Source: Bolinopsis microptera | Taxonomy: Eukaryota > Ctenophora > Tentaculata > Lobata > Bolinopsidae | DNA: 64,000 nucleotides | Direction of reading: 5' to 3' | Assembly (NCBI RefSeq): GCF_026151205.1 | Contig: NC_087072.1 | Location: 15,476,169 to 15,540,168 of the forward strand | In this document: positions 26,327 through 52,941 of the stretch, in pieces | Position numbering within the stretch: the stretch's first letter is position 1 | Layout of the letters: each line of letters begins with the position of its first letter | Translations under genes and position numbers: made by a program | Notes under the pieces: generated by a model | Seen by the model: the letters and a program-made list of their open reading frames with translations, nothing else | The model's database searches: none | Told to the model about the DNA's origin: nothing

Positions 26327-26680
26327 GCTTCGTTAACCAGCGGTTTCGATGGAATAGCGTGATAAAACATTTTGCATTGTAAGGTGAATAATCGGCTGTT
26401 AGGTGAATTATAATTGGTTATTTTTTTACCCCTTGAGAAACTGTTCATAGATCTTCGTGATTTCATAGGTGAAGAGATAAAAGTTGCCAATTTATCTAAC
26501 TGTGAAACAGAAATGATCTATGAAACTTCAACATCATGGTCAGTGAGAAATAGGGAAATTTATATTTACTGATGTGTAATAAGACACGAAAACGATCATA
26601 TTTGTATATTTATCAAAATATTAGTAAGTGAAAGTCATAGACGCGAGATTGGAGAAGACATTTTAAATAAAGTTTTTAAA

Positions 26681-28581: not shown

Positions 28582-31500
28582 CTATTGTACTAACAGGTTC
28601 AAAGCGTTTGGTCTATTTCCACCCTCGTCTGCATCTTGGTATCTGATATCGTAGCTGTCGAAGGCTCTGAAAGTAAATGGACATGCTAAATTCTCACTGA
28701 TATGAAAGCTGGAGTGCGAACGCGGACCGATACGAGTTTGATATCGAGTAAGATACGTTTAACGTGGACTGATAAATTCCACGAAAGTTTCAATTAATAA
28801 TACGCGCGTTGTTCGCGCGATTAACATCAATAAAAGAGACGTTGCGCCCTTCGCAAACTACAATTTTTAATAGTGACCGATGGCAACGAGCAGGTTGACT
28901 GTCAACTTTTGAAATCTGATTTATTTTATTGATATCTAATTTATTTTATTCTAATCACGTGTTGAAAGTAAAATATATCTCAACTTACACTTTCTCTGGT
29001 TCAAAATCTGCTCCAGCATCTGATTTTGGAGCTCTGGTCTCAGACACTATCGCACCACGACCTCTACCTCGACCTTTTTTCAAGTTGATATCACCGTCAC
29101 TGTCCATATTTCTTGAACTCCCAATCGAAGAAGCTGCCATTCCTCTTCCTCTTCCACGACCCTTGGATTTACTATTCTTACTGACTGAAGATTGATAATT
29201 TGAGGAGGTGCAGCTGGATACTGAACACTGTTCGTCGTCTGTAGTCGAATTGGGTAAGGGGGACTCTCTTCGATAAAGAGGTTTGTTTACGGGTTGGGGT
29301 CGGAAAATTAAGCTGCAATCAGTATTTGCACTGGAGTTTCGTTCTGATTCACTGATTAAACCAGATTTAACATAAGAAGGAAACACTCTTTTGAAATCCG
29401 TTTCCTTGAATGGGAACTCAGTTTGAGTGTCAGAGTCTACTGTTCTGAGTCGCCTATAGTTGGCAGGTGGGATAGAACCACGCCCATAGCTGTAGCCAGG
29501 GATTAAAGAGGCTTTCTTGTCTGTAATGTGCTTGAAATAGAACAAAATAGGAAAATGGAGAAAGTTTATGGACTCTATGTCGTCTGAAGATGTTTTGTCG
29601 GACTGCATGGTAAGAAAGTTCTCGGTCAGAGTTTTAGAATTAAGTTTAGTGTGAGCAAGTGCTTGTGTAATCTCACGGATAGTATGAGAGCCCCTGGACG
29701 AGTCTAGATCTGGGTTTAAGTCAGATTCTTCCGCTGTAGGTAAGTGTTCTGATTCTGTGTGCATCTTGACTGGGATTGGTTTAACTGGGGTTGGTTGAGC
29801 AGGGAATGTATTCTTAGGAGAAGCTGGCTTTTGGGTGGCAGATTCTCGGGCTTTTTTCTTATAGAATTCCTTCCTTTCGTTCTTCTCCTTTTTCGCTGAA
29901 ATGAAAGATGTTGTTTTTATGAAACTTAAAAACACTTTGTTGAGTGATTTCAAATGCTCAAAAAAATTAAAACTCGTAGCCAAAGTAGAGCTAACATTTG
30001 GTAGACTGCGGTTTGGTGTAGTAAGCTTTGATATCTAAGTCTGGAGCTGTTGCTTCAATCGCTCCATAGATCCTATTCATATCTTCCTTTGTCTGCATAA
30101 ATGTTGCATCAAGTAACCCTTTACAGGCATTCTCTAGATCGTTGAGGTATTTGTCAACAATAACAGCAACATCGAAAGTCTCGTCGACAGGGAGTTCTTT
30201 GCCACTGACAGAAGAGTAAACTAAAGCTACAAATATGTCTAGTGAGGCTGTAGCATCATTAGCCGCGTAGGTCTTTTGGTTTGATTGGAGAACATTACTT
30301 TCCCAGTTATCTGAAAAACAATATTTTTCTTAAAACAATCTTTCTAAGACTTTAAATACCAGGCAGAACCTACTACAATGAATCTTCTGACGGTCAATAA
30401 ATCATGTACGTAATCATTTACAGAACGAGGGTCTGATATTTACCTGACCATCTTGCTGACGTATTTTTGGGTAGTGTTCGGACCATACAGTCAGCTATCA
30501 GGGACTCAAGACCCATTTTGGGGCACCAACAGAGTCGCTTAACGTTCGCTTGCTTTGCACTCTCAGAGTTCTGAAAACAAAAAGTGTAGAATTTCAATTA
30601 TATAACCATTTTAAGAAATGTGCGGTAGTGGGGAACCAAGAATAATTTATAGAAACGTCGTCACAAACAAAAATAATGTAGCTGACAAAAGTTGTGAAAG
30701 TTTAATCCGTTCTAAAAACCCACCTACTCTTACCTGGTCTACTTGGTCGTAATACTGCAGAGTGAACTCTAGATTCTCCACCTGCTCAACAATACACTTG
30801 GCCCATGATTTACTGCGTATTGCCACATGCCGCAGGTCTACCCAACTTTTTATCTTGCAGAAACAATCTTCTCCCAGTTTGTCACTGTCATTCTCTATAT
30901 TCACACCCACCTGAATAAATTAACTATACTTAAATCGCTCACATTTTTATCAATAATAACTTATTGATGATATTAACACAAAGTTTTTGGAACGAACCTA
31001 CCAATATGTGTTGGCTTATTATTTATAATTCTGTTTGTCCAATTAAAACACTGTAAAAGAGTCAAAGAAACACTATGAAGCCATAATAATAAACCTTGTA
31101 AATGGTAGGATCCTCAAGAACTAGCTTGGCGTTTTCAGGAAGTGTAAAGTTAAGCTTACACACCCTTACCAGGAGGACTATGGTAGGGGTGGCGATTTGG
31201 AGTAGTGATACCTGGACAGTGAGCAAGGTAATAGTACTGATACGGTCATGAACCACTAATTAATGTTTGTTTTCAATAAATTGTACTAAGTCTAGCAAGG
31301 CGGAGGATGTTTCAGTAGAGTAAATGAAGTTAAATACGTACCGGCCTGTTTGTGTTCCACTCACAATCTAGTCCAATGAACTGCAGAGCTGGCTTTAGGA
31401 TGTAATCTTCGAAAGCTGAAATAAAAAATTAATATAATGACTGTGTAGGGGTACATTGGAGAGGTCTAATACATCGGAGAAAGGAGTTGTACTATGTGGT

Positions 31501-31767
31501 GCAGGCCACTCCAACGACTAGGAGAAGACCTTTTCAAGTACAAGTAAGTACTGTGTAGTGCGGTAGTGAATTTGTGTAGTATGTAGTAAATTTGTTACAA
31601 GTCTTTCAAAAGCAGATTAATGTCAATTTAACGCAAAATATGTATAAAAGATCATTTAAGTATACAATTTTATTTCGATCCAAATTTGATGATTTTGAGC
31701 GATTACCTCGGTTACAAGTTTCAGAGTCTTCTATGACTATGATCTCTTGTCGACATGTGTATGACAT
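28582..31767 (-). CDS. EXD2-family 3'-5' exonuclease, copy C, with novel RG-rich tail
   Basis: Exons: 31707-31767, 31342-31415, 31095-31211, 30734-30910, 30444-30570, 29996-30310, 28989-29895 and 28582-28666. These total 1863 nt (620 aa). The first six encode the DEDDy exonuclease: GLDCEW (Asp37, Glu39), VSLLQIA, VGVNIENDSDKL, DLRHVA and YAANDATASLDIF (Tyr200, Asp204). The sixth intron uses a weak donor (GTTAGC). If it is not spliced, translation stops at TAG 29991-29993, giving 291 aa. The intron position and phase equal those of copy A at the same place, which supports splicing. The last two exons encode a disordered tail with acidic, Ser/Thr-rich stretches and two KGRGRGRG-type motifs. There is no counterpart of the EXD2 C-terminal Cys/His domain. 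The tail could instead be a separate gene. Confidence 0.78.
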
Positions 31768-33400
31768 ATTCTCGATCGGGTCCCGAATTTCAGCTTTATT
31801 TCAGCTACTCAGAACATATCTAGTTCGGGGTTGTATTTATTAAAGGTTAATGTCTCACTATTATATATTAATAATGTGTTATGCAAGTCATTTATTTTTA
31901 TCACTTTAAAACTTTAAAAACAAAATCTTGTTCTCCAAAAGCTCGAAGTAGCTCGAATCAAATGAAACTTGAAATGTTTTCAAATAAAATTGGATTTTTA
32001 ATATCATGACCGGGTCACGATTAAAAGGGTATCATTAGATCTGTAATATGTATCTTATTTCATAGAAAGAAAACTCCATTTACGGACGTGAGGACAGTTA
32101 GAACTCCTCTAACTACATTAAATCAATTCCGTCTGTAACTTCCTCAATAAATGTAATAGATTTGTAGTGTTGCAATTAGTTTAAAACTAACACTTATACA
32201 AATAATTGTCTTGATTTGAAAACTTTTCATTTTAATTTCATGCAAGTCGTGCATACAATTTTTGCATAGTTAAGAATTTACGAAACGAAACACAGCATTT
32301 AATTTAGTATTTACTAAATTATAAAATATATCTAAATAATTTACACAATACGGTGCCCATGTCGGAGCGGATCTCCTAAAAAACAGTCACTCTCCTCAGA
32401 GGTCAATATCATTAAAAATATGTCGTATATTATTATATTTGGGTGAAATATGTCGTGGTTTTTATATCACCCGATGGGGAATTTTTGGGCCCCACAATGA
32501 TCCAAAGTGGCAGAGCTCGATCCAGGGGGGCAAAGCCCGCTACAGGCGAGTCCTGGGAAAATTTATTGAAAAATTCTGAACTATTTTGATACAATTATTC
32601 TTTTATATGATATTCCCCGTCAGATATGTCAGATATTCGTTCATCTCATCAAATATATGCGGAAACGTTTTTCATGACATGCTTTGCCTAGAAAAGGCAG
32701 GTAAGATGTCATGAAAAAATTGTTTTTAAAGGAATTTTGTAATCAATTATTTTTGAAATTAAATTAGTTCGTAACAACATTTAACAATAATTTGGTTATG
32801 TCGTGGCGTTCCCTCAAAATATGTCGTATATTTATATGCGAAATATGTAATGATATTGACCTGAGTCACAAAATCAAATAGACTGAATATGGTTAAGGGG
32901 ACAATAACAGATTAAAGAGTGAAACAGAATTTAAAATAGTATGCATACAATATAATTGATTTTATTGACACACCAAAAAACGAACCAAAAAATAATAAGT
33001 GGATACTCGAAAAAACAGCACACATCTGGGATGACTAGATTAAACACTGCTGAGTATAAGTTTATCTTAATAGGTGTTATCTAGTGGTGTTATCTAGATT
33101 CTAGTGGTGTTCTTAAACTTCAATTTATTATTATTATTACTAGCTAATACGCCTGCTACTCGCCTTCAGTTTAGAGGTAAAGAGTTCAGATAGTCAAGAA
33201 TCTTCTTAGTTACAATTAATGAACATTTTCGTTCAAAACATAAATCAATAAGAAAAACTGATAGATAAAAAACTGATAGATATGATAACAGCTCAATACA
33301 ATATATACATACAGTTCAAAAGATACAACAGATATATGATAACAGATCAACCTCGTGAATTGTCAAATCATAATATTATTATGTTTAAATATATTATGTA
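31768..33400. other. Intergenic region between copy C and the mariner-like MITE
   Basis: Apart from the inverted-repeat element at 32400-32862 there is only AT-rich sequence. The first part should contain the copy C promoter. No motif is specific enough to name. Confidence 0.4.
32400..32862. mobile_element. Short inverted-repeat element with AGGTCAATATCATTA ends
   Basis: AGGTCAATATCATTA at 32400 is matched by TAATGATATTGACCT ending at 32862. ATATGTCGTATAT occurs near each end. A nested hairpin (TTTTTCATGACAT with ATGTCATGAAAAA) lies at about 32671-32720. It is non-coding, and no clear target duplication was seen. Confidence 0.65.
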
Positions 33401-34167
33401 CAGGGTGGGCCAAAAGTCAGTACCCATACGTTGGACTTTATAGCTGAGTCACTGAGTGCCCAATTTAAATACTTCCTTCTGGTATGACTTAGTACCACCA
33501 CTGGTTTGAGGAATTTGTCAACTCGAAAAATATTCGCGTTCATTTTTTTCAAATGGAAGTTCATTTTCACATTTATTTTATAGTTTGGATAGTCGGATCA
33601 AGCTAAATGTTATTGAATTGTGTTTGGCCATTCGAATTACGTTTGTCCTGAAAGAATTAGAACTGTAGCTTCTCAGATTACCGAGATATGAAGCATAACG
33701 AGTTTATTCATTACGTGTGATCAGGTGATTGGTTTACCTAATCACGTGATAAGGTTACCCCGTTAGCTACCCCGTTAAACATTATGGGAATTGTTAAGGG
33801 TGCCCAATTAAGGTGTCGTGTCACGGTGTCACATAATCACCCAGTCAATTTTGTTAACGAGATACAGAAAATGCTTGATAACTTCGTCATTTCTACTCCG
33901 TTTTGCCTCATGTTTTCAGATCATATGCAACATTTGATAATCTACCGTCTCTGAAAACATTAGGCGTTCAGCATGTTCAGAGAAAACAATATAGGTGTTT
34001 TAATATTGAATGGGCGTGGTCTAAAATATTCGAATTTTCAAATTTTGACGACGGAATCCTCGAACCAGTAAGTACAGTATGCCATCTGCAAAGCAACAGC
34101 TCTCAAATATAAAACACGGCGGAGCTATTAAGGCCAACGTATGGGTACTGACTTTTGGCCCACCCTG
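33401..34167. mobile_element. Mariner-like MITE, copy 2
   Basis: The termini CAGGGTGGGCCAAAAGTCAG and complement are flanked by TA at 33399-33400 and 34168-34169. It closely resembles 9550-10319 over its full length, differing by scattered substitutions and small indels. It lies between EXD2-family copies C and B. Confidence 0.84.
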
Positions 34168-34566
34168 TATATTATCATGTTTCTGGCAGTATAGTAATTT
34201 GCCATTGCATTGAGTCTGACAAACCTTTATACTGTGTTATTAATATCATACACACGAAAACGTTGGAGTATGAACTGTATAATATAAATATGACAAGTTA
34301 TGTAAGTAATCTAAAATAATTCACTTTTTAACTCATTATAAAAACCTGAAAACCATTATATTATTTCAAAATCAAAACATCAACTTTAAATCTTGAAAGA
34401 AAATGAACGTCAGTATATATATAATATATATTAGTATTATACTATGTACTAATTGTTCTATAATGAACGAGAATCTGTAAATAAGATAAAATCATTAATA
34501 ACACTATTTAATGAGCAACTTAAAAAATAGAAAAAATTCTGGCAATTTTTAATCAAAAATGCATAA

Positions 34567-36327
34567 TTATGTCTTCATTTTCTTATTTTGTCCACGGGGA
34601 GGCTGTGTCTTGTAATCAGTCAGATCAAACTCCTCTTCAGTTATCAGTTTGAAGCAACTATTCTTAAGAGACCGATCCTTTAGTGTCTTTCTTTCAATCA
34701 GCCTGATTATTAGTGGAATAAAGTTATTGAATGAAGAAAGTTTAATTCACATCAAAACTTTGGGATGATGTAGATAATAGATTGTAGCCAACGCCGTTAA
34801 TTATCAGCTTTCGTTTACAAATTTTTGCAACAAAATGAAAGTGAGAAGTCATTTAAATAAAATAAGAATGCCATGATAATACATACATGTATGAATCTAA
34901 AGTAACATTATGAAAATAAATTAAATAAATAAATTTGACTACCTTAAGTCAGTAAGCTGTGACTTAATACAATTTTCAGGATCAAGCACAAATTTGTCAG
35001 CACTGAAAGTTCCCAGTTCTTTTTCAGACATCAATGTGTAGAAGATATCAAGGCAAGCAGCGCCATCAGCCGCAGCGTAGCTTATTTGTCTCTCCATTAA
35101 TGTATCAGCTTCCCAATCGTCTGTGGATTTAAGATGAGTTTTACCAAGACGTTTTAAAATATTAAAAAGAAGGTTTAAAGCTGTACCTAGATAGTTCACA
35201 AAAGGATAGCATGAGGATGCTCTGTCTGTCTCTGGGCAATGACAACCCTGAAGGAGGTCGCCCGAGTTATCTATGTGGAGATGAAAAAGGTTATGAATAA
35301 TTGATTTTAAATAATCAGCAAGTAAACATTTCCATTTGACTTTGCCCTTTCGAAGCTGAATTCCAAGGCAATCCTTTGTCAGGCCGGCCAACCCCCACTT
35401 AGTATTCCAACCATATCGTTCAGCTTTCTTTTTGTTTTCATTCTCCTCAGATGCCAGTGTCTCTTCAAATTCTTTTAGTTTTTTCAGTATGACTTTCGCA
35501 TATGCATTCGTGTTAACAGCCAAATTCCTTAAATCCACCCAACTTTTCAAGTTGCACTTGTAATCATCCCTTAACTTCTTAGCATCGTTTTCAATGCCAA
35601 CACCGACCTGAATTGATGAAAGATTGCAAAAATTTAGTTTCTCAACAATTTACTTACTGCAAATAAGATCAGAAGTAAAACCATTTGCCAGGAATGTGCT
35701 GGAAATTAATTGTTGCTAAAATAGAGCCCCCCAATTAGCTAGGCAAGAATAACAGAATGTTATCATGCAAGTGATAATATAAACTCTATCCATACCTTGA
35801 TAATATCGGGATTCTCTAGAATGTCACGTAAGGTCGTTGGGATCTGTTTATCAGCAAACTTGGTGATTCGAAATAGGAAAACATCGTCAACAGTTGCAAC
35901 TTGAATTAAGGCAATCTGAAGTTGTCAGATGTGAATCACTGAGATATTATCTTTTAGAAATTTTCAATCAGTAAATATAGTACATTTTAAGACACGATAA
36001 CAAAATTAAGAATATTAAGTATTAACTTTAAATTGTCGATTGAACTACCTTTGATTTATCATTCCACTCACAGTCCATGCCGAGAACTTGTTGGGCTAAT
36101 ATCGACTCAGCAATGACTGAAAATAATTTTGCTAATAAACTTTATTTTTGAGTATACTCAAGATGGTCTAGGACTAAATAATTGAAATAGATAAATGTGA
36201 CCGAATATCATATAATATGTATTATTACATTGCACATATTTTAGCAAATTAGCAAATTACCTTGGTCACATGTCTGGGTGTCAATGATGACAGTGATCTT
36301 TTGCTGACACGAGTAATTGTTATCCAT
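34567..36327 (-). CDS. EXD2-family 3'-5' exonuclease, copy B (exonuclease only)
   Basis: Exons: 36261-36327, 36049-36116, 35796-35915, 35328-35607, 34943-35120 and 34567-34702. They sum to 849 nt (282 aa plus stop). Motifs: GMDCEW (Asp37, Glu39), ALIQVAT, VGVGIENDAKKL, DLRNLA, GLAGLTKDCLG and YAAADGAACLDIF (Tyr193, Asp197). Compared with copies A and C, the intron between the DLR region and the GL-S-L region is missing, so those two exons are fused. The intron 35121-35327 is open in frame, so a retained-intron product 69 codons longer is possible. The protein ends in a short basic tail (NKKMKT), so it lacks the C-terminal Cys/His domain of copy A. By homology it is a metal-dependent 3'-5' nuclease for single-stranded or resected nucleic acid; the actual substrate is unknown. 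Confidence 0.9.
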
Positions 36328-37844
36328 ACTATTTTAGGTGTGTATTCCGTTCTATCAGATCCTATATCCTATTTCAGTGTTGTGTTCAGAAATGTTGTGT
36401 TCAGAAATTTTACACAAGAAAGTTAGCAAGCTCCTAAATTAATTTCAAGCAGAAAAAAAACAATCGATTCACAGATTTCATTGCTAGTAAAAACTAATAC
36501 ATTTCACAAATAAGTGCAGATCTATTGATCAACTGCCAATACAAAAACATAATATAAACCCAAATACAATTAAATCGACTACTGTTTATAATAAATCTTT
36601 ACATTTCTGTTGTTGTGAAAGAAACATCGGAATAGTTTGATTGATTGTAAACTATCTTAGCAAATATTTAATACAAATAGTAATAATCCCTCACAAAGGC
36701 ACTGCACTCTCAATAGGAAAATGCCACACTGCGTAGATCAGCACTTAACGACGGAATTTAAACCTCATCTGACAAATATTGTGAAAACTTAAAGTTTTGT
36801 ATGCTCTAACGGCCAGAAAGAATAACTCAACAAATAAAATTGTTTATCACAACGGGACAAGTCCCCATCCTCTTACGAACACTACCGTATCGTCCCTAAT
36901 ATAATAGCAAGACATGTATTGAAAAAATGTATTCTAGTAAAAGCAGACATGGGCGCCGCTGTAAAACGCATAGGCGGCGGAGTGGAGCCATATTTGGTCG
37001 GCGGCGGCGGCATTTGACCGGCGTGGAAATATTTTGCCCGAACCATTGCTCAATTTTGTTTATGAAAATTTTGAGCTTAGGGACGAGGACTGGCGTTCAA
37101 AGTAGTTCACTTATGTGTTTCTACAGTAGAAGGCTAACTAATATTAAATATGTTGTTCAGTGCAACATTTATGATATCCATTTTCCAACCAGTAATTACT
37201 GTTAAAAAGACTCAGCATTCAGCTATGTGAAATTTACAGCTTATTGACCACAGGGTATTTGAATTGATGTTAAAATGTGTAACCGTCAGTCGTGCTTGCC
37301 ATCACTTGATGAGTATTGACTGCTGATCGTAGTCGAGTTGTTAGAACAAATCACATAATTCAGCACAATCCACGTCCGAACTGTTGAAAATGCAAATTGC
37401 CTCAGTTCTTGTCAAAGTAATTAAATTTGCAAGTGATGCGCAGAAAATGCGCACGTTTAAATGCTGGCAAACAAGATGTTCATATCCTAAAATACCGGAA
37501 ATGCGGATAAATTTTGACGGCAGTATGCGCAAATCATTTCTGAGGCGCAGCTTGTAGTTGTAGCTAAGATCCTTTCTGCACGACGTAACCTAACTCCAAA
37601 ATATTATCATTTTGTCGACATTCATGTACCTAATTATTGTTTTGTCCTTTACAGTTTCAGCTCAGCAACAACAAGTTCCAATTAGGGGCCATCTACTTAG
37701 GACGTCCGCCAAAATCGCAGATTTTCAGACCACCCCCTCCCCCTGTCCGGGTGTGTCCGAATTTTTGAAACCACCCCTCTCCCCCTGGACGTCCGGATTG
37801 TCGCCAGACTGGTTAATATTCCTTATAGGACACTACTAAATAAC
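36328..37844. other. Intergenic between EXD2-family copies B and A
   Basis: It contains a GC-rich patch with GGCGGCGG runs (36950-37025) that looks like repeat debris, and a CT-rich segment (37685-37800) with repeated GGACGTCCG and CCACCCC words that resembles a decayed MITE end. No exon is supported. Confidence 0.4.
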
Positions 37845-40800
37845 TTATTCGACACTCATTGTTTCAGCTTTCATATGAGAATCATCACTGTTTATATTAT
37901 ATACAGCTTCCTTCGCTGACTCCTCCGGCTTCTCTTCATCTATCTCCCCATCCTCTTTTTCCCTGAAGTTACCAACTACCATTTTTACCTCATCCCCCTC
38001 TTTTTCCAGAATATCTATCTCATTTATCCCTGACTCAGCCTCCTTTAACTTATCCCTTGTCTTGTGGTCAACACTCCACCCCTTGGGGAGATGCTCCGGT
38101 TTCATTGAGGACAAAAAGAAGTTTCTCCACCTTACAATGAAGTCCTCCACTTTGTCCTGCTCGATAACTTTCTTCACCACTTCACTACCATGCTCTGGAG
38201 CATTACCTGAACACTTCATATCATTAATGGATATACATTTCAGTTCCATGACCTCTTCTGCTGACGGCTCATGTCCCAAGTAGTCAGTAATCGTCTGTTT
38301 CAGCACTAGTTTCCTTTCTTCTGGGATGATATTGTTTGTTGCTGTCAGAGCCTTGGCAGCTGCTCGAACACTAGATTTTGTCCTGTTCAAGACCATAAAG
38401 TTGTTTTTGTAATTGATGGGAATCCCATGCTCTGTCGCCAGTTCTTCTCGCATCAGGTTATCAAACATATTGCTAGAACAATGACACTGGACACACAGCA
38501 GCACTACATCATGTGACTGTCTATCTTTAAATTCAACAGGCAGGTGTCTCCTGTATTCTTTAGGAATGACATTCTTTCTAACAAGCTCCTCGGTTCGAGA
38601 ACAACAGCAGCATTCATTTATCTTGTCCTGACAATAGAAGTCTGAACTATCCAACGGTTTTCCAGAGGGTTCAAAGAGTAACTTAGCAGCAATTGGTTCA
38701 CCCTCAGCTTGTTCAATAGGCTCAGCCAAGTTGTTACTAAGATACCAGTTTATCTTTCTTTTGTTACATGTACAGAGGAGTGTCCCGTCAGGAGCATACA
38801 GTTTGCAGTTCTCGTATAGCGGCTTTTTCCGTACAATTTTGTGAACATTAGCTAGCTGCTCATCAAATCCTGAAGATATTCTATGTTAGCTTGTATTGAC
38901 AAAATAATACATTTATAAAAATATACTTCAGATTGTGTTTTGTAAGTTTAGTTAACATAACTTTAACAGCTTCTCTTAGCCTAGTATAGGCGACTGCTAT
39001 TATTTTACCTGCATATAGTTTGGGTCTCTTGGCTGGTTGTCTCATCTTATTTTCTGGTGATAAAAGAAAAACTTACATAATAATTATTTGAGTACAATTA
39101 TTATTAATACAGAAGGTCAGAAGTGTCATAAATAATTTTCCAAACAATCATCATTCATAGTCTACATAATGTTCACAAACTGTCAGTTGCCAGAATTAAA
39201 TGAATGTGAATACAATTTTCATAGGTCCAGAACCCTTCCTCCCAATTAGGCCACACTCAGTGACAAAGGAACATTCCACTTGAGATGTTCCTCCACAAAT
39301 ATAAATACAGGAATTTTAATTTTTCTGGAACTCACTCAGATAGCTTACATGGTCGCTTTCAGGATAGGTCACAGCCCACTAGTTTATTTTCAGAACGTGG
39401 CAAACAACGTCAACTTCGAGACGCAAGATTTTGAACACTTTTCAGGAGAAGCAGAAACATCCCAGCACCTCCTCTGCAAGTGCATCCAGATCATGACGTT
39501 CAGAATGAGGATAATTGGTAAACTCTACCTTAAAAACAGTAAACTACAATCATATCTTCAAATCTGTGGAACAGTCGACAAGACTGGATAGGGAAAACCC
39601 TTTTGGGTAACCTCCTAGGATTCTTCACCAGGAACTTTCGCTAAATCCCATACTAGGAACTCAACCTAGGCCCATCTCCGCATAGAGACATATTTCCCAG
39701 GCTTTGACCTTGCTCGGAAGTCCCTTGTCTGCCCGCAGAAGTACTACAACGGAAGTGGGTTTGCTCTGAGACAGGTAGTGACAGCTTCAAGACTCCAGGG
39801 GTCTGTTGCATTGATATTTATTATTTTATGATTTCGTATATACTTTGGGAGTCCTGGCGTGCAGCTAGCAGGAGTTGCATTCTGTGGGCACGGTGAGAAG
39901 GCCTCCATCTTTTAGTAAGAGGCCAGAAACCGTTGACCAGAACAGAGAGAGAGAGAGAGAGACATTTTACCGGGGAAAAAACAACTTTAAATTAGTTCTA
40001 AATCTGAAAAGTTTCAACTCACTATTTTTCTGAACCGGTTTTGTCATGTAATCAGTAAGATCAAACTCCTTATCAAGAGCTGTTATTTGTGAATAACACT
40101 GGCTCACAAGACTTTTTTGTTTTACATTCAGCCCAATTGCCCTGAAGTTAGGTAGCAAACATTAATATCTTATTTCGCTTAGTTCAGATTAATTATTATG
40201 TAAATGTAATTAAAAGAAATTAAAAGCAGCTAAAATCTGAGACTATCATATTGATCATATTATAATCAAAGATAAACTGGAAACAAATTACCAAGCTGTG
40301 GATATTTAAAGAATATAATATATAATACCTTCCACAAAATTTTGTGAGCTGATCTTTTATATCAGAAGCCCACTCAATCTCTGAAACACTAAAAGGAACT
40401 CCTAGATCTTTCTCCACCATAAGAGCATAGAATATATCAAGAGCAGCAGCCCCGTCAGCAGCTGCATAGTTGACTTGTTCCTGGCTGAGACTGTATGCTT
40501 CCCAATCATCTGAATATCATGATACATATATTATATTGTATTTTATTAATTGTAAAATCAGTGAAAATTACAAATCAAATTAAATGTCATTTAATATTCA
40601 CATTCATGGTGGAAAATAAATATTTTTCGAAAAATGTGATTTTATGTATTTAATAATAAATTGATATTCAACTCAATGCATGCTTTACATATGTAATGAA
40701 AAACATCAATAAAATTATTGAAATAATTCAGATTATGAAGTGAGGATGAGTAGTAGTCAGAAAGGGAAATTTAAGGGGAGAATGGCAGGGAAAATATTTA

Positions 40801-43800
40801 TTGTATGGATAAAAAATTAATATTAAAATGCAAACCTTGCCATCTTGCAGTGCTTTCCTTCTGAAGTCGGACACCAAGGCAATCTTCTGTTAATGAGCCC
40901 AAACCTAATTTGGGACACCAGCTGTATCTTTTAGATTTCTTTCTCCTTTTCGATTCAAGGTTAAGTATTTCCTGGAGTTAGGCTTCAAGTAGGATTCATG
41001 TCTCTTGAATAATTATAAAATTGCAAACTAAAATGAGCAAGAAGACTTAAGAACAGTCCAAATTTAAGAATCTTGGTATGAACATAATATTACGATTTTA
41101 AAAATAGAAATGTTCCTTTACCCCTACATAATATTATGCAGTACAAGTGATTACAACTGTTTCAAACAAGATACCCACTGTTAGAGAAAACGAGAAAAAA
41201 CTTTACATCTTCATTGTCTTCTGGATAAAGAATAGCCAGTTCTTCTTCAAATTTCTGGAGCTTTTTTAGTAATACTTTTCCATATGCTGTCTTGGTTACA
41301 GCAATATTCCTCAAATCTACCAAACCTTCTAAATTGCACTGGTATTGTTTTCTTAACATCTTGGCATCATTTTCGATGTTAACACCAACCTGTGAATGTT
41401 TCAGCTAGCTATTCTTGGGTCTCAAAATTATTGAAACAATTTCAGCAATTCACCTCAGAATGGTATGGAAAAGTTTGTGTTTTTCTTACCTTGATGATAT
41501 CACCATTCTGTAGGATATCATTCAGGCTCTTTGGAATCCGTTTGTCAGGGAACTTGGTGATACGAAATAGAAATACATCATCACAAGTTGCTACTTGAAT
41601 CATGGATATCTGAAGTTATCAGATTGATTATGCTAATGCAAATGATTTTTGATGAGCTAATAGCTAAAAAATAATGTTAAATAATAAATAATAATAATAA
41701 AAGTTGGTAGCTTAAACACAAACTCTAAGCCCAGTGGATAAACCACAAAACTTATGCTCTATTGTGTGAAACAAAGATACTAGATCAAGATAACTATCAA
41801 GGAGTGTATGCATAGGACATAAAAAGTTTTGGAACGAAGATGACATGCTTGTGAAGCGAGCTAACAGTCTAATTGCTAATAAGTTCAAAAAGATCATGAC
41901 ATTAGGTTGCATCCTAAACAGTTTAAGCAAATAACATAAAGTTATTATATTGTCAATTAATCGCTCATGCCATAACTTTTCTTAAACAGGTGAGTTTTTA
42001 ATAATGTTTTGAACAGATCAACATCGGAACAAGTCTTAATTTCAATTGGTAGTTGGTTCCAGATTTTCGGAGCAACAGTCTGAAACGCTCTTGGGTGTGA
42101 TCTTGTAGATCCGACGGGTAGGTGTAAGGATGAAGTTCTTCTGCTACTCGAACTAACAAATGTTACTAGATCACACAGATATGCAGGAGCAACACCATTG
42201 ACTGCTTTGAAAATCAGTAAGCATAACTTAAACTCAATCCTCTCCTTCACCTTGAGCCAATGAAGGGATTTGAGCTTCTCCTCGACTGAGTCTCTCTTCT
42301 TTAATCCAAAAACCAGACGGCATGCTCGGTTCTGAATGTTCTGCAGCTGCGTAATTGAGGCTTGACTACAACCATAGTAAAGTGCATTGCAGTAGTCAAG
42401 CGATGAGATTACAATTGCTTGAGTCAGTGTTCCCATCTGTTTGGTTGTGAGGAATGATTTCATCTTAGCAAGGTCTCTTAGTTTCAGAAAACACGATGTT
42501 TTAAGTTGCTTGATTTGCTCACCGAAGTTTAGTTGAGAGTCGAGACGAAATCCGAGGTTCTTTGCAACAGGTGACAGCCTGACACACGTCTCAGAGTTAA
42601 CAAACACGCCCCCTATAGACAGCTGCTGGAGAACAAGCGGTGTCCCAAAGACAAGAATCTCAGTTTTTCCTGCATTGAGCTGTAGATAATGTTTTTTCAT
42701 CCAGTCATTAATTTCTTGGAAACATTTGGGAACATCGTTGATAAGGACGGTGGGCTCCTCGTTTGGCTTGAAACTCTTATACAGCTGATGATCGTCGGCG
42801 TAACCCTGGATGGAGAAGTTCAAATCATGTGCTGCTGAGTACAAAGAGCGAATGTAGATGTTGAACAGGACCGGACCCAGCACAGAGCCCTGTGGGACTC
42901 CAAACTTAATCACTATCTCATAAGATTCCTCATTTCCAACTTTAATCGTTTGACATCTACCTGTGAGGAAGCTGCTGAACCATTTCCAAGCTGTCCCTGT
43001 TATTCCCAACTCATTTCTGAGGATGTTCAGTAGTTTGCAGTGGTCAACTGTATCAAAAGCTGCGCTGAGATCTAGGAGAAGAACAACAGTTGCCTTGCTT
43101 TCTGTAGATGCAATGAGCAGATCGTTAACAACTCTCACAAGCAGAGTCTCGGTGCTGTGTTTTGATTTGTATCCAGACTGCTGTGGGATGTTCAGGTTGT
43201 TGTTTTCTAGATGTTCATTTAGACGCCTGAGCACTACTCTTTCTATCAACTTGCCTACAAAGCTAAGGTTAGATATTGGTCTGTAATTCTTGAGATTATC
43301 ACTATCCAATCCCTGGCCCTTGATCAGGGGTGTGATATGAGCTAGTTTAGCGCCATCAATACTGCCAGAAGATAATGAAGCATTTACTATGTCAACTAAG
43401 ACGGGTAGTAGAACCTCAAGGTTTTCTTTAAAGATGTTAGCAGGTAGAGGGTCAATTGAAGAAGACTTGATCTCAGATGCCTTGATTATCTCCTCTAGTT
43501 CTTCTAGAGTAGTTGGAGAGAACTCAGCTAGTTTTTCTCCGCAGTAAGAGGGCGTTTGATCGTCAGACTCCACATGATCAAAGTTATTACGTATTGCCTT
43601 TATTTTCTCCTGAAAATATACGTTAAAGTTTTCGACTGTGTCCTTGAGAGACTCCGACGAAGGCAACACAATGCTTTTATCCCGATCAAGAAAGGTGTCC
43701 ACAAATCTAAAAAGACTCTTAGAAGAATAGGAATGCTTTATGAATTCGACTTTGAAAAACTCATGTTTCTTCCTGTCTGAGAGTTCTGTGCACTGCTCTC

Positions 43801-46800
43801 TGACTGATTCATAGTGTTTCTTGTCAGTTAAAGATCCGGAGATTTTCCACTTTGTCTCGGCTTTTCTTCTTTGGCTTCTAAGTGCTTTATATTCACCATC
43901 GAACCAAGGGGCAGACTTACGTTCTTTGATTTCCTTTGTGAGGAGAGGAGCATGGTTATTCAGCACAGTTAGGCACTTAGAGTTGTATAGGCTGATGCGG
44001 CTTTCAAATGACGGCATTTCAGCTTGTGATAGACCCTCAGGATCCATTACAGTAACCAATTCCTCAGCAAGATTATCCGCAAAACAATCTTTGTCAATTT
44101 CTTTGACATTTCTGAATGTGATAACTTTTTTCTTGTTGAGATTGCTTGCAACTGTTTTTGTGAGGCTAAAAGTAACCGGGAAATGGTCACAGTTTGGGAA
44201 CATTTCCGAAGTGTGCGAGTCTACTGTGACACTCTTTGGATTGACTATCTGATGGGAGGAGATTACAACATCCAGAATATGTCCTTTGTTGTGAGTTGGA
44301 TCTCTCACGTATTGATGCAGTCCATAGCTGGCCAATACTTCAGTCAGTTTGGCCGTGTTTCTTGATTTATGTTCATCCAAATGAATATTAAGATCACCAC
44401 AGATTAAAAACTTCTTGTATTTCATGAATATGTTCCCAATAAACTCATCCAAATCTTCAAAAAATACATCAGTCAATGACCCTGGTCGGTAAACACAAGC
44501 ACAGAGGACAGTATCACCCGATGAGTCCCGAAATTTGCCTAAAACTGCTTCAAACGTATCTCCACACTTATCAAACACAGGAGTAAGGTTCAAATCACTT
44601 GAATTATAAATAATTCCAACTCCTCCGCCTCTGCATTTAACGGAGTCTTTCCTGATGTAGTGAATCAAGTTATAGCCGTAAGACTTGATGGTAGCAGTAA
44701 CATCATTCTTCATGCTGGTGAGCCAAGTCTCAGTGACAAAAAGGACAGAGATTCTTTGGTCGATTATAGATTCCATGATTGGTTGAATCTTATTATTGAG
44801 AGATCTCACATTCCAGCAACAGCCAAGAATCTCTGTCGGAGAGGATTTCAGACCACTGCTTACAAGTTTTTTGAACTGTAGTAATTGATAGTTTTGCGGA
44901 GATGCTGCTGTTCAGCAACATAAGCTGGACATGTCCTATCAAATGCCGTGTGTGTGTTTCTTTCATCCCGATACTTGCCTTTAGAGCAGTTAATGCAGCA
45001 TGGGATAGGACTATTGGTTTTCTTTTCTGGACAATCTTCTGACGTATGATTCTTGGAACAATAACCACAAATAGCTTTTTCTGATTCACACTCCGACCTG
45101 TAGTGTCCAAAACCTTGGCATTTGTTGCATCGTTTTACATGAAATTGATCATAAACTTTGCAACTAAACGAACTGATGTATAGCCGATCTCCCTGTTGTT
45201 CTATGATTTTCCTGATATTGTTACTAACTCGTATAGTAGCTTGATGCTTGCTGCTGTTTTTGATCTGAGGTTTAACTTTTAGTACGGAAAATGTTTCACC
45301 CTGGGATTTTAATGCCTTAATGTTGGGGTGAGCTTGAAGGAGCAGGTCTTCTAGATCTTCTTCAGAATAATTATCAGCAAGGTTAGCAACAGAGATTGTG
45401 GGCAAACGTTCTGGTGGCTGGTGCGTTTTTATTTCTGGAAGTTGCTGGGATACTTTCTTGACGAGATTTTCCCTGTCAGCCGTTGTCGGACACACAACCA
45501 CAATTTCCCCTTTCTTGTTGACATACCGTTTGTCAGCATGAATGGCGTTGTCTTTGATGATTTTGTCAACATCTTTGCGATCTTGATCTTGATTTTCTGG
45601 TGTTTTGCTGGACATGATTAATACAGAGCGATATGAAGGGGCAACTGGTGCTGGAGATGAAGGAGAAGAAATTTCAGTTATGTCCGGAGATGTTTTCATA
45701 TTCACAACTTTCATAAGTAAACCCTTCATGTCCTCCATAGATTGGGTCAGATTATCTACTCGCCTGTCAATCAGGTCGACTTTACTTTCGGCATTGACTG
45801 CGGAGTTCTGTTCAGAGTGTGTCTTGCAGACATTACACACAAACGTAAAAGTCCCAAATCTGGAACTGTTAACACCCTTGGTTGCGTTTCTGTCGGAATA
45901 TGCTTTGAAGAAAGTGCGAGGACAGATTACATCAGTATTAATCCTATCTTTATCAGCATCTCGACAAACAGCATGAAATGACGATTTACACAAAAAGCAG
46001 GTAAGAGCAGTGTCATTAGCTTGAGCATCATTACAGGTGTTACAAGTGCCGTCTTTAATGTAGGCAAACTGGTATTGAAGAGTGTTACCTTGTCGCTGTT
46101 GAGTACTTTCAGAGGATGTGGATGAGTTCAGGAAAGGTGTGAAATGTTGCGGGGCCGGGGATAACATATCTTCGCTAACATTCCCGTCATTCTTTTGCAT
46201 AACATCCTGTAACGAGATTGAGGACCTGTTACCCTCATCATCAACACTACCTTCTCCGATCATTGCGCACTTCTTTTACAAAGTGAAACAGTGCAAATCA
46301 GCAAAGTCAGTAGAGAATCAAAATTGAGTTCGGGGTCCTCAAATTATTTGTTATATAGTAGTGTTGAAAGTATTAAAACTTAAATTTAGAAACCACATAA
46401 TAATTAGAAACCACATAATAATTAATATGCAAGGCTTAAATAAGAAAACCGAAATTCTTCAGTTACTTAAATTTCGTCATTGACTGTGTTGACTACCTTT
46501 GATCCTGACGAAGAATTCCATTCACAGTCAACTCCAAGAACATTTTTATTGAATATTGACTCCAAAGAAACTGAAATTTATTTGTATATTGCCACAGCTT
46601 TGTACTATCTAGTTTGTAGGACTTCAAATAGTGGTGATTGGGACAAATTCATCAAATTTTAAACATTTCAAGGACACCAATTATTCACTTTGAGGTACTG
46701 GCATTGACTATAGTGCTTCTAAATAAAAACTAAAGTTTTAAAATTACATACCAAATTCAGCTTGTTTTAAGTCGTCAACGATCGTTATTTTCTGTAAGGT

Positions 46801-46821
46801 CTGATAATCCCTGAGATTCAT
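37845..46821 (-). CDS. EXD2: EXD2, full-length 3'-5' exonuclease domain protein (copy A)
   Basis: Nine exons: 46752-46821, 46497-46570, 41490-41609, 41207-41389, 40836-40971, 40329-40509, 40023-40141, 39009-39053 and 37845-38869. They sum to 1953 nt (650 aa; human EXD2 is 621). The DEDDy exonuclease has GVDCEW (Asp38, Glu40), VGVNIENDAKML, DLRNIA and YAAADGAAALDIF (Tyr209, Asp213). The last exon has the EXD2 C-terminal module: KPLYENCKLYAPDG, LLCTCNKRK, a CCCC cluster, RKNVIPKEYRRHLP, SHDVVLLC and the MKPEHLPKGWSVDH end, all matching human EXD2 in order. Human EXD2 acts in DNA-end processing and at mitochondria. The membrane anchor of human EXD2 is not seen here, but an AG acceptor 10 nt before the ATG suggests an upstream exon. 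Intron 2 holds an entire LINE, and intron 7 holds a LINE fragment. Confidence 0.94.
39300..39600 (+). pseudogene. LINE 3'-end fragment in EXD2 intron 7
   Basis: The frame 39280-39591 contains IGHSPLVYF and EAETSQHLLCKCIQ, typical of the cysteine/histidine segment at the end of RNase-H-bearing non-LTR retrotransposon proteins (TGH-P-L...E-T-HLLC-C). No RT remains. The following sequence to about 39960, ending in a GA dinucleotide run at 39945-39962, shares the word CTCGGAAGTCCC with 22750 and is probably the element's non-coding 3' part. Confidence 0.55.
41957..44884 (-). CDS. LINE ORF2: APE endonuclease and reverse transcriptase
   Basis: Open for more than 950 codons. The endonuclease starts at CWNVRSLNNK, with FVTETWL, CGDLNIHLDE and CDHFPVTFSL. 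The RT contains LSAAFDTVDH, GVPQGSVLGPVLFNIYI and the catalytic YADDHQLY. A conserved C-terminal CR1/L2-type region follows (SLDYCNALYYG, QNRACRLVF, LHWLKVKERIEFKLC). There is no RNase H, as expected for this group. No ATG precedes the endonuclease in this frame near the ORF1 stop; the frame overlaps the end of ORF1, so translation by termination-reinitiation or frameshifting is likely. All catalytic motifs seen are intact. Confidence 0.9.
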   Translation of the reverse strand, partial: LLQFKKLVSSGLKSSPTEILGCCWNVRSLNNKIQPIMESIIDQRISVLFVTETWLTSMKNDVTATIKSYGYNLIHYIRKDSVKCRGGGVGIIYNSSDLNLTPVFDKCGDTFEAVLGKFRDSSGDTVLCACVYRPGSLTDVFFEDLDEFIGNIFMKYKKFLICGDLNIHLDEHKSRNTAKLTEVLASYGLHQYVRDPTHNKGHILDVVISSHQIVNPKSVTVDSHTSEMFPNCDHFPVTFSLTKTVASNLNKKKVITFRNVKEIDKDCFADNLAEELVTVMDPEGLSQAEMPSFESRISLYNSKCLTVLNNHAPLLTKEIKERKSAPWFDGEYKALRSQRRKAETKWKISGSLTDKKHYESVREQCTELSDRKKHEFFKVEFIKHSYSSKSLFRFVDTFLDRDKSIVLPSSESLKDTVENFNVYFQEKIKAIRNNFDHVESDDQTPSYCGEKLAEFSPTTLEELEEIIKASEIKSSSIDPLPANIFKENLEVLLPVLVDIVNASLSSGSIDGAKLAHITPLIKGQGLDSDNLKNYRPISNLSFVGKLIERVVLRRLNEHLENNNLNIPQQSGYKSKHSTETLLVRVVNDLLIASTESKATVVLLLDLSAAFDTVDHCKLLNILRNELGITGTAWKWFSSFLTGRCQTIKVGNEESYEIVIKFGVPQGSVLGPVLFNIYIRSLYSAAHDLNFSIQGYADDHQLYKSFKPNEEPTVLINDVPKCFQEINDWMKKHYLQLNAGKTEILVFGTPLVLQQLSIGGVFVNSETCVRLSPVAKNLGFRLDSQLNFGEQIKQLKTSCFLKLRDLAKMKSFLTTKQMGTLTQAIVISSLDYCNALYYGCSQASITQLQNIQNRACRLVFGLKKRDSVEEKLKSLHWLKVKERIEFKLCLLIFKAVNGVAPAYLCDLVTFVSSSSRRTSSLHLPVGSTRSHPRAFQTVAPKIWNQLPIEIKTCSDVDLFKTLLKTHLFKKSYGMSD
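44860..46263 (-). CDS. LINE ORF1 protein with PHD-like and CCHC zinc fingers
   Basis: 467 codons from ATG. The N-terminal third has a PHD-like Cys/His cluster (CNTCNDAQ ... CFLCKSSFHAVC ... FVCNVC, about residues 75-145). A predicted coiled-coil stretch follows, then a possible RNA-binding fold (about 285-365). Knuckles come near the C-terminus: CNKCQGFGHYRSEC, CGYCSKNHTSEDC and CCINC. PHD plus CCHC architecture is known for ORF1 of CR1-type LINEs. It ends with TAA, and ORF2 overlaps this end in the +1 frame. Likely role: RNA binding and particle formation for the element. Confidence 0.85.
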   Translation of the reverse strand: MIGEGSVDDEGNRSSISLQDVMQKNDGNVSEDMLSPAPQHFTPFLNSSTSSESTQQRQGNTLQYQFAYIKDGTCNTCNDAQANDTALTCFLCKSSFHAVCRDADKDRINTDVICPRTFFKAYSDRNATKGVNSSRFGTFTFVCNVCKTHSEQNSAVNAESKVDLIDRRVDNLTQSMEDMKGLLMKVVNMKTSPDITEISSPSSPAPVAPSYRSVLIMSSKTPENQDQDRKDVDKIIKDNAIHADKRYVNKKGEIVVVCPTTADRENLVKKVSQQLPEIKTHQPPERLPTISVANLADNYSEEDLEDLLLQAHPNIKALKSQGETFSVLKVKPQIKNSSKHQATIRVSNNIRKIIEQQGDRLYISSFSCKVYDQFHVKRCNKCQGFGHYRSECESEKAICGYCSKNHTSEDCPEKKTNSPIPCCINCSKGKYRDERNTHTAFDRTCPAYVAEQQHLRKTINYYSSKNL

Positions 46822-46879
46822 AGATTTGCTGCAACATAAAATTAGACTAACATTCTATATAATAATAATAATAATAATG

Positions 46880-48958
46880 AGTTGGAGGACGAGGGCTATA
46901 AGTATCTGGGAATACTAGAAGCCAATGATATACTGCACAAAGAGATGAAAGCACTGGTTACAAAGGAGTATATCAGAAGAGTTAAAAAGGTTTTAAAATC
47001 CCAGCTTCATGGCAGGAATAGTATACAAGCAATTAACACCTGGGCCGTACCTGTGATAAGATATGGAGCTGGAATTCTCTCATGGAATGCTGGAGAGACC
47101 AAAGCCTTAGATGTCAAGACCCGGAAACTGATGAGGATAAATGGAGCTCACCACCCCCAAGGAGATGTTGATCGGTTATACGTAAGCCGTCAACTGGGTG
47201 GCCGTGGGCTACATAGTATAGAGGAAGTCGTAAAGAGAGAGGAGAATGCACTCACCACTTATGTGGTGAGAAGTAGAGACCCAGAACTGATTGCTCTGAA
47301 GGACTACTTTGTCAAAGACAAGATACTCTTGGGTGAAGAGATAGAGAAAGATATCGACCGAACACAACGCGAGGAAATCCGCAAGGAGAAGTGGACTGCT
47401 AAAGTGATGCACGGACAGTTCCCAAGGCAGATGATGGGTATAGCGGACCCGTTAACCTCTTGGAACTGGCTCACTCAACAAGACTTGAAGAAGGAGACAG
47501 AAGGATTGTTGATAGCAGCCCAAGACCAAGCACTTAGGACGAATTATGTGAAGCACAGGATTGACAAAACACCTGGCTCTTCTCCCCTCTGCAGACTCTG
47601 CAGAAATCATTACGAGACAATAGACCACATACTGAATGGGTGCCCAAAACTTTCACAGACAGAATATAAGTGTCGGCATGACAAAGTAGCTGCCGCATTG
47701 CACTGGAGTCTGTGCAAGGAATACGGCTTCCCACGCAGTAAAAGGTGGTACGAACACCGGGCAGAGAAGGTGCTGGAGAACGAAAAAGTCAAGATATTGT
47801 GGGACTTCCATGTCCAGTCGGACCACGTTATCGAACACTGCAGACCGGATCTCCTCCTGGTAGACAAGGTAACCAACGCAGCAACCATCATTGACGTTGC
47901 AGTCCCAGGAGATACCCGGATCCTGGATAGAGAACAAGAAAAGATACTGAAATATCAAGACCTAAAAAGAGAAATTAAGAAGAACTGGAATTTACGAAAG
48001 GTCACAATCGTCCCTGTGGTGATAGGCGCATTAGGAACTATCACCATTAACTTTCGTAAACACCTCGACGCAGTCCACTGCAATCTGAGCATCTCTAATC
48101 TCCAGAAGACAGCTCTGCTAGGATCAGCCAGAATTCTCAGGATGGTCTTAGACATATGATATTATTGAGAGTATAATACACTGTAGATACTCTATATTTA
48201 GTTTATTCTTCACTGGATACTGTAATAAACACTTTTTACCTGGTCCTCTTATTTCTCTTCCCTTGCTATGCAAGCCCTGTCTCTTGTTTATACAATTTTT
48301 AACCCGTATATTGGGTAGACTGTGTAATTGTTATGTATTTTATATTAAATACAGTTTTGTGTACAAGTAATTATTGTTATTTAATGGACTAAGGGGTATA
48401 CATGTGTTGGAGTTTTTCTCTTATTCTTCTTCTCTTGCTCTGCATGCCCTGATTCTTGTATAAACATGATGTTTGTTTAAATATTGTATATTCTTGTATT
48501 GATTGTGGTATTTTGTGGGTCAGATTCAGCAATACCCAATGGGTACTTGCTGAATCACTGTTTTATACACTCTGTAGCCAGTCCCTGTGTTCCGTCCCTT
48601 GCCCTGCAAGCCCTGTTTCTTGATTATATAGCATTGATTTATCGTGTATTACATTGTAGTATGTAATAAACATTTGTAGTAGTATAGGATTGTTTGAATT
48701 TCTTTTTGCTAGGTTTTATAATATTTATTTGTATAATTTGTGATTGTTTCTCCCGGTTTTCTTCCCTTGCGTAGCAAGCCCTGTCTCTTGTAAAAACAAC
48801 CTCGAAAGATTTGTAGATACACATAGTCTCTACACCTTTACCCTCTGGTCCCTAGGGTCAGCTGATCCCGGGCCAGAGGGAAACTACCGACTGCCAAGGT
48901 TTGACGCCTAGGCAGTCGAGACCTCTTATTGAGACCCTTTATAATAATAATAAATTAA
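46880..48958 (+). mobile_element. 5'-truncated R2/R4-type LINE inserted in a TAA microsatellite
   Basis: The element starts right after a (TAA)n run (46861-46878) and ends in CCTTTATAATAATAATAA at 48958. Its protein is the 3' part of an RLE-type LINE. The 3' end is structured: complementary CCCTCTGG and CCAGAGGG words (48840-48880), then ACTGCC and GGCAGT, before the TAA tail. The 3' UTR (48245-48800) has four diverged units spaced about 170 bp apart, each containing CCCTTGC..TGCAAGCCCTG or a close variant. The R4-clade element Dong is known to target TAA repeats; this arrangement fits that. It lies about 40-60 bp upstream of the EXD2 start codon, antisense to EXD2. Confidence 0.8.
46882..48159 (+). 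CDS. C-terminal part of an RLE-type LINE polyprotein
   Basis: About 425 codons are open with no true start because the 5' end is lost. It opens in the RT thumb region (GYKYLGILEAND), followed by WAVPVIRYGAGILSW and the HHPQGDVDRLYV(S)R block typical of R2/R4-like proteins. A CCHC motif CRLCRNHYETIDHILNGC precedes the restriction-like endonuclease, whose RPDLLLVDK ... IIDVAVPGD gives the PD..D core. The RT catalytic domain is absent, so it is not autonomous, but the remaining frame has no stops. That implies a recent insertion. Confidence 0.87.
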   Translation: MEDEGYKYLGILEANDILHKEMKALVTKEYIRRVKKVLKSQLHGRNSIQAINTWAVPVIRYGAGILSWNAGETKALDVKTRKLMRINGAHHPQGDVDRLYVSRQLGGRGLHSIEEVVKREENALTTYVVRSRDPELIALKDYFVKDKILLGEEIEKDIDRTQREEIRKEKWTAKVMHGQFPRQMMGIADPLTSWNWLTQQDLKKETEGLLIAAQDQALRTNYVKHRIDKTPGSSPLCRLCRNHYETIDHILNGCPKLSQTEYKCRHDKVAAALHWSLCKEYGFPRSKRWYEHRAEKVLENEKVKILWDFHVQSDHVIEHCRPDLLLVDKVTNAATIIDVAVPGDTRILDREQEKILKYQDLKREIKKNWNLRKVTIVPVVIGALGTITINFRKHLDAVHCNLSISNLQKTALLGSARILRMVLDI

Positions 48959-50460: not shown

Positions 50461-50479
50461 ACTTTTCGTATCACTTTTG

Positions 50480-52209: not shown

Positions 52210-52775
52210 TGAAGGCCATTAGACTTAGAGCATTTGAAACAACCAAAAAGGTTTAACTTGTATATCTTTTACGGTTTTTGCGGAAAGTCGTGTTATAGTT
52301 GATGTCGTGGTGTCGTAAAATGGTACGGATACATATATATATCAACACCGACTTTTAAAGTGTAGGAGTACAGCAACGAAATATATATATATATATATAT
52401 CGTCTCGCTTTATATATAGTAAGATAGTGCCGCGGCCGCCATATGACGGCAAATATCCGTTTGGATATTTACGCTAGATTAATTTCTACTCACAGTTTGA
52501 GAGTTATATAACCTTTTTTATAGACAATTAAATTAAATCGAAACGTAGGACTCGGTAATAATACACTGGTTCATTGTAATGGACATTCGCTATCCAACTA
52601 TAAAGCAATTGCAGCTGGAAATATTATAGTTATACAATAACAATATGCAATACACAATAGTTATCTTTTCTGTTGACTTTTGTATTTCATCCTAATTGCT
52701 AATACTGATTATTAACTAAAATATAAATTTCTACAATTACAATTATTTCTTTTATGAGGGTCACATAATGATTAA

Positions 52776-52938: not shown

Positions 52939-52941
52939 TAA

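Follow-up and report, generated by a model that had tools for sequence, protein, structure and literature searches.

A diversified tandem array of EXD2-type exonuclease genes in the ctenophore Bolinopsis microptera

Why would a genome hold several neighboring genes for exonucleases of the EXD2 type? The question is raised by a 64,000-nucleotide stretch of Bolinopsis microptera contig NC_087072.1 (the window), in which three spliced exonuclease genes, here called A, B, and C, lie head to tail on the minus strand between 28.6 and 46.8 kb. A sequence-only reading of the window had described them as tandem EXD2-family copies with different C-terminal modules and had suggested that they divide their labor. 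The array is real, old, and diversified, and it is part of a larger expansion of EXD2-type genes in this genome. What humans have as a single enzyme appears here as a diversified family. We judge it probable, with some reserve, that A is an EXD2 gene and that B and C are old tandem paralogs of its exonuclease part, with active cores in all three and with tails that would set location or partners.

Gene models and active sites

Models rebuilt from the minus strand yield exactly 650 (A), 282 (B), and 620 (C) amino acids, which reproduces in full the sizes, order, and orientation first proposed. Every modeled intron is bounded by GT..AG. An in-frame stop codon is located upstream of each ATG, 11 codons away in A and C and immediately adjacent in B.

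The Pfam domain DNA_pol_A_exo1 is matched above cut-off by all three proteins (E = 8.9e-16 for A, 4.1e-17 for B, and 4.2e-10 for C), and the same search of A, B, and C gave no second domain above cut-off. In an alignment, the five DEDDy columns (D, E, D, Y, and D), which we take to be the catalytic residues, are complete in each protein, as had been claimed for the acidic and Tyr active-site residues. A search of solved structures was run with A and C and returned human EXD2 (6k17) first (E = 9.1e-16 and 3.1e-14, respectively) and WRN second (5.7e-9 and 8.7e-9). B is placed by its 57%–58% amino acid identity to A. With complete active sites and a long history of maintenance, A, B, and C would be active metal-dependent DEDDy 3′–5′ exonucleases that employ two-metal hydrolysis.

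The evidence for maintenance comes from nonsynonymous (dN) and synonymous (dS) divergence. Over 273 codons, A and B differ with a dN of 0.32, a dS of 2.15, and a dN/dS of 0.15, and the silent sites of A/C and B/C are saturated. Because the silent sites of A and B are near saturation while dN/dS is ∼0.15, B must have been maintained. It has remained open and constrained over a long time, and the A–B divergence is old. Classification of B as a pseudogene was rejected given this ratio and the intact catalytic residues. More broadly, it is extremely improbable that B and C are nonfunctional and in decay. The lack in B of the tail exon and of one linker intron speaks for decay, but open frames, GT..AG introns, and the five catalytic residues have been kept despite near or full silent saturation.

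No N-terminal hydrophobic anchor is present in the models of A, B, and C. The best 19-residue hydropathy value is 1.06 in A and 1.19 in B, and the best value in C (1.68) is located within the nuclease core. We therefore name A a probable EXD2 without an anchor, and B and C EXD2-type exonucleases. A also carries a KRPK stretch, and motifs of this type are compatible with nuclear entry. To judge from this stretch and from the lack of a hydrophobic anchor, A could be a soluble, possibly nuclear EXD2.

Introns and C-terminal modules

In one alignment, all three genes have four introns at common positions and in the same phases (1, 0, 0, and 1). A phase-2 intron is common to A and B only and is missing from C, whereas the phase-1 intron that closes the exonuclease part is common to A and C and is missing from B. 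In the poorly aligned linker, A and C each have a phase-0 intron, three columns apart, that B lacks. Thus, the earlier statement that the three genes share intron positions and phases is correct for four introns, and two more are common only to A and B or to A and C. Taken with the tandem order, the shared introns point to local duplication of the trio, which we favor.

The tails start at the phase-1 intron common to A and C, and therefore the differing modules sit behind a shared intron. The exonuclease part would have kept most of its exon structure, and the module behind this intron would have been kept in A, exchanged for a different one in C, and lost in B. At roughly the corresponding position, the sequence is ACAAAATA-AGAAAA in B and AGAAAAATA-GTGAGT in A (by eye), such that B has no GT donor. 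The B frame continues for a few codons beyond the lost donor and then meets a stop, and B is indeed a protein that ends after the nuclease, as was first reported. This pattern suggests that the tail of B was lost through a failed splice site and that the tail of C was replaced behind the same intron, in an order of events that we infer.

Exon 9 of A is rich in Cys and His, and its sole match in the genome is itself. Against Pfam, this C-terminal exon gave only a weak match to RPA43_OB (E = 0.032, 15.1 bits versus a cut-off of 27.6). The best E value against the PDB was 1.4, with none under 1, and a scan of viral contigs found no relative of the module. B and C lack the C-terminal Cys/His module of EXD2, to which the Cys-rich exon of A may correspond. 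The proposal that only A keeps this module agrees with the exon being unique in the genome, whereas its identity as an EXD2 module is presumed, with no convincing Pfam or PDB match. If the homology holds, the ancestor that ctenophores share with other animals would already have had an EXD2 with a Cys/His module.

The tail of C matches only its own two exons in the genome, and no relative was found in Pfam. It comprises 330 residues, 71% of which are P, E, S, K, Q, R, D, N, G, T, or H, and it includes eight Arg-Gly (RG) dipeptides, six of them inside two GRGRGRG runs. When the tail was shuffled, at least six RG dipeptides were seen in 4 of 10,000 trials and two such clusters in 0 of 10,000; therefore, the RG clusters are not explained by composition. 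These results agree with the original description of an unrelated RG tail. Clusters of this kind are usually RNA-binding or arginine-methylation sites. A role for C on RNA assemblies via its RG clusters is reasonable but unproven, and a role in germ granules is a guess. EXD1 and EXD2 are reportedly tied to intermitochondrial cement in mouse, as worded in the title of a reference.

Might the tail of C, or its last exon, come from another transcript, which would make C a bare exonuclease like B? This idea is consistent with the lack of any relative of the tail and with the last exonuclease exon, whose frame hits a stop within two codons past the donor used. In addition, the last coding exon is optional: It needs a GTAAGT donor at 28988, and termination at 28985 would give a protein of 593 rather than 620 amino acids. 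However, the tail frame of ∼300 codons stays open at 38% GC, and the intron preceding it equals intron 7 of A in position and phase. We consider it very unlikely that the tail or last exon belongs to a separate transcript.

The wider family and the age of the trio

A genome-wide Pfam search returned 25 exon matches, including those to EXD3- and EXD1-like families. None is inside the window, probably because spliced genes have short exons that do not reach the threshold. With the query's own exons counted, B gave 32 matches (E up to 10), C gave 25 (E up to 1), and a member of an intronless group on C7 gave 22 (E up to 1). Candidate counts in the genome are lower bounds. The notion that three copies are the whole family was rejected, as further members came up in the searches with B, C, and a C7-type sequence. 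Beyond the window there are at least one further spliced gene (D), 12 intronless C7 loci, and one fused C7 remnant. The array of three is real, as first described, but it is a small part of the family. None of the three introns of D matches those of A–C in position and phase. The 16 EXD2-like rows (A, B, C, D, and the 12 C7 loci) score 177–343 bits with an EXD2-type profile, in which 7 of the 16 were included.

The C7 loci are arranged in two clusters (Table 1), which are copies of one block. Matching members occur in the same order, and alignments of genes plus flanks are long (78%–95%). A PfkB-type kinase frame is found on one side of both clusters, with the L011 copy recognized by its near-identical sequence. 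An ATP12-family frame flanks cluster 1, and its cluster 2 counterpart was matched as DNA only. Apart from the fused remnant, L025 is scattered over several frames; it represents a third copy of this block that has decayed. Leftover haplotype copies could inflate the count, and therefore the distinct C7 genes could number ∼7 rather than 12. Real duplication is favored because of the third, decayed copy and because some pairs have a dS near 0.5.

Nine of the 12 C7 loci are uninterrupted. Of the others, c7_3 is split over two frames, c7_7 is broken by a single TGA, and c7_4 has a separate match for its first 37 residues. All five catalytic residues are present in 10 loci, and c7_1 and c7_6 lack the Exo I Glu and the Exo II Asp. 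A hydrophobic 19-residue segment ends no more than 23 residues from the C terminus in eight loci (means 2.47–3.2). In c7_2 and c7_8, such a segment lies 85 and 75 residues from the C terminus (1.87 and 2.21), and c7_4 and c7_10 have no such segment but Pro-rich tails. No 19-residue hydrophobic segment over 1.6 is present in A, B, or D. The absence of introns in C7 loci has parallels in frames resembling ionotropic glutamate receptors (iGluRs), which span at least 900 codons without introns, and therefore intronless genes are not unusual in this genome.

The copy number and the local duplication of C7 blocks also fit a different proposal, in which the whole family, including the trio, expanded as a defense against retroelements or viruses and not for DNA-end repair. 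In nine C7 comparisons (with c7_3 as two pieces), dN/dS exceeds that of A/B in eight (0.24–0.57) and equals it in c7_1/c7_6 (0.15). The two C7 copies without catalytic residues and two window frames with Pfam reverse-transcriptase matches are likewise consistent with defense. However, dN/dS is below 1 in all nine comparisons, A and B look constrained, and no link to defense genes turned up, although no search was aimed at one. We find an origin in defense quite unlikely.

The position of the trio was examined in three trees, with linker columns kept in and with human EXD2 as the only EXD2 of another animal. The largest contained 19 rows: the 16 EXD2-like rows, human EXD2, WRN, and an EXD3-like row. 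Three EXD1-like rows (two in L017 and one in L018) were left out of it. Neither D nor the EXD3-like row was used in two smaller trees, and the smallest of all lacked human EXD2 as well. No tree included sequence from L007, L009, L016, or L025.

In the 19-row tree, all C7 copies fall together on one side (94/97), and the trio is grouped with D and human EXD2 (81/63) with no firm order inside this group (A+B, 41/7). Forcing A, B, and C together costs 6.8 log units, with a p value of 0.067 in the approximately unbiased test (p-AU). A grouping of A, B, C, and human EXD2 without D is marginally rejected (0.0325), for which the long D and human EXD2 branches serve as a warning. A clade of the 16 genome rows versus human EXD2, WRN, and the EXD3-like row is neither shown nor rejected (0.307), and the same holds for C joined with the C7 set (0.198). 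The grouping of A with human EXD2 is likewise neither shown nor rejected, with a p-AU of 0.147 in this tree and 0.276 in the smaller tree that includes human EXD2. In the smallest tree, the trio is separated from the C7 set (95/97), and A joins B (87/98). The C7 copies thus form a clade, and A lies near B.

The trees do not decide between a local duplication and an ancient paralogy for C, nor whether a single ctenophore gene gave rise to all copies. C, and perhaps B, could predate the ctenophore split and have been lost elsewhere, the tandem then being a relic of an old array. This is somewhat unlikely in our estimation. It agrees with the identity of C to A (35%), to B (40%), and to human EXD2 (36%, the same value as for A and for B), with the saturated silent sites of A–C and B–C, and with a weak union of C and human EXD2 described below. 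On the other hand, same-phase shared introns and tandem placement are explained most simply by local duplication, and A, B, and C fall on one side in the smallest tree. The intron argument is void if human EXD2 has the same introns.

Several points weigh against A as an EXD2 gene with B and C as its tandem paralogs. C lies at least as far from A as human EXD2 does. When human EXD2 is added back to the smallest tree, it joins C weakly (62/17), and A+B+C has a p-AU of 0.238. The Exo II–Exo III linker is longer in the trio, in D, and in the C7 copies (c7_5 has a shortened version), with the two human rows gapped over 28–30 columns. It carries little weight and was dropped as a mark of single origin, since the EXD3-like row, from the same genome, fills much of the linker too. 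The likeness of exon 9 of A to the C terminus of human EXD2 is presumed. Finally, an acceptor-like TTTATGTTGCAG is located 7 bases 5′ of the ATG of A, between the upstream in-frame stop and the ATG. A further 5′ exon of A, even one with an N-terminal anchor, or a spliced leader is therefore possible. A strict scan of 46829–55000 found no upstream anchor exon, and three control stretches (one overlapping the scanned part) likewise gave none.

Local duplication, as proposed by the sequence-only reading, thus remains favored by introns and tandem order, whereas a clade of A, B, and C in trees with human EXD2 is neither shown nor rejected (0.067 and 0.24). Phylogeny, suggested there as a check, unites the trio with support only in the smallest tree, and it leaves the age of C unsettled.

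Neighboring elements, possible roles, and known nucleases

Intron 2 of A houses a non-long terminal repeat (non-LTR) retrotransposon (Table 1). Between B and C, at 33393–34175, is an element of ∼780 bp that has 53-nt terminal inverted repeats (92% complementary) and holds CAGGGTGGGCCAAAA; it looks like a mariner-type miniature inverted-repeat transposable element. Directly upstream of A, a 437-codon frame (46846–48156, plus strand) resembles a retroelement C-terminal part by eye and has no Pfam match at 0.001. The window also includes a minus-strand frame with repeated SNAAGNRG units (25607–26332) and a single-exon frame of 362 codons (60765–61850, plus strand) that is seven-helix receptor-like by eye, again with no Pfam match at 0.001. 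In the genome, the iGluR ligand-binding family has 32 matches on many chromosomes, 10 of them in uninterrupted frames of at least 900 codons. The best solved-structure match of one iGluR-like frame is ML032222a of Mnemiopsis, and another frame (L022) is identical to ML032222a in 90 of 120 first-lobe positions, as would be expected of a lobate ctenophore. A PDB search with a second iGluR gave nothing at 1e-50.

Table 1. Coordinates of the exonuclease genes and associated elements. Positions are those of the window unless another sequence is named.
Feature	Position	Strand	Description
Gene A	46821..37845	-	9 exons, 650 aa
A exon 1	46752..46821	-	ATG at 46821
A exon 2	46497..46570	-	DCEW motif (Exo I)
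A exon 3	41490..41609	-	
A exon 4	41207..41389	-	IEND motif (Exo II)
A exon 5	40836..40971	-	Linker
A exon 6	40329..40509	-	YAAAD motif (Exo III)
A exon 7	40023..40141	-	Exonuclease part ends here
A exon 8	39009..39053	-	Basic QPAKRPKL stretch
A exon 9	37845..38869	-	C-terminal Cys/His module and acidic tail
Gene B	34567..36327	-	6 exons, 282 aa, exonuclease only
B exons	36327-36261, 36116-36049, 35915-35796, 35607-35328, 35120-34943, 34702-34567	-	
Gene C	28582..31767	-	8 exons, 620 aa, exonuclease and RG tail
C exons	31767-31707, 31415-31342, 31211-31095, 30910-30734, 30570-30444, 30310-29996, 29895-28989, 28666-28582	-	
C tail exon	28989..29895	-	Two GRGRGRG runs; phase-1 intron before it common to A in position and phase
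Gene D	L008 1270-2872, C6	-	314 aa, three introns, all five catalytic residues
C7 cluster 1	C7, 8.860-8.872 Mb		Five intronless EXD2-like loci
C7 cluster 2	C7, 9.427-9.449 Mb		Seven intronless EXD2-like loci
Fused remnant	C7:8702 kb, L025 (C7:8701000-8704500) 987-1529	+	Kinase part followed by EXD2-like segment in one open frame
Non-LTR retrotransposon in intron 2 of A	41960..46275	-	Same strand as A; two long open frames
Retrotransposon frame with PHD-like finger	44863-46275	-	Pfam match below cut-off
Retrotransposon endonuclease and reverse transcriptase frame	41960-44911	-	

The core chemistry would be the same in all three, and the tails would decide location and partners. A division of labor among A, B, and C may be envisaged. 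Human EXD2 is dimeric, and for this reason B, as a bare nuclease, might pair with A. The RG clusters of C may hold its nuclease on RNA or RNA–protein assemblies. The trio belongs to a larger set that includes the intronless copies, and the majority of these copies have a hydrophobic segment, resembling an anchor, at the C terminus. We propose, tentatively and with considerable doubt, that the contested roles of the single mammalian EXD2, as a soluble nuclear or cytosolic enzyme or as a membrane-anchored one, are split here between soluble A, B, and C with different modules and C7 members that are mostly membrane-anchored at the C terminus, the reverse of the N-terminal anchor in humans. In mammals, the site of EXD2 is disputed between nuclear DNA breaks and the mitochondrial outer membrane (PMC5876329). 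A nuclease core that occurs both in soluble proteins with three kinds of tail and in proteins with a hydrophobic C terminus could provide a natural separation of these disputed roles. A search of the open-licence literature found no title on EXD2 copies in ctenophores.

Among other nucleases of the superfamily, EXD3/Mut-7 has the same Pfam exonuclease domain, 18%–26% identity to the 16 EXD2-like rows, and a different C-terminal domain. A homolog with this Mut7-C domain is present at C8 (L015), and Pfam did not find the domain in A, B, or C. EXD1/Egalitarian-like proteins belong to the same exonuclease superfamily and score 26.7–42.7 bits against the EXD2-type profile; the single-frame L017 (C9) and L018 (C2) are presumably homologs of this type. 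The WRN exonuclease domain shares the fold family and motifs, with 28%–34% identity between human WRN and the 16 EXD2-like rows, and Pfam detected no RecQ helicase part in A, B, or C.

The closest known relative is human EXD2 (PDB 6k17 and relatives), a DnaQ-like DEDDy 3′–5′ exonuclease that is the top structure match of the A and C cores. The DCEW, ED, and YAARD motifs align. Human EXD2 has a single N-terminal transmembrane domain (PMC5876329), whereas no such anchor was found in the A, B, and C models. The Bolinopsis genes further differ from human EXD2 in their longer Exo II–Exo III linker and in their presence as several gene copies.

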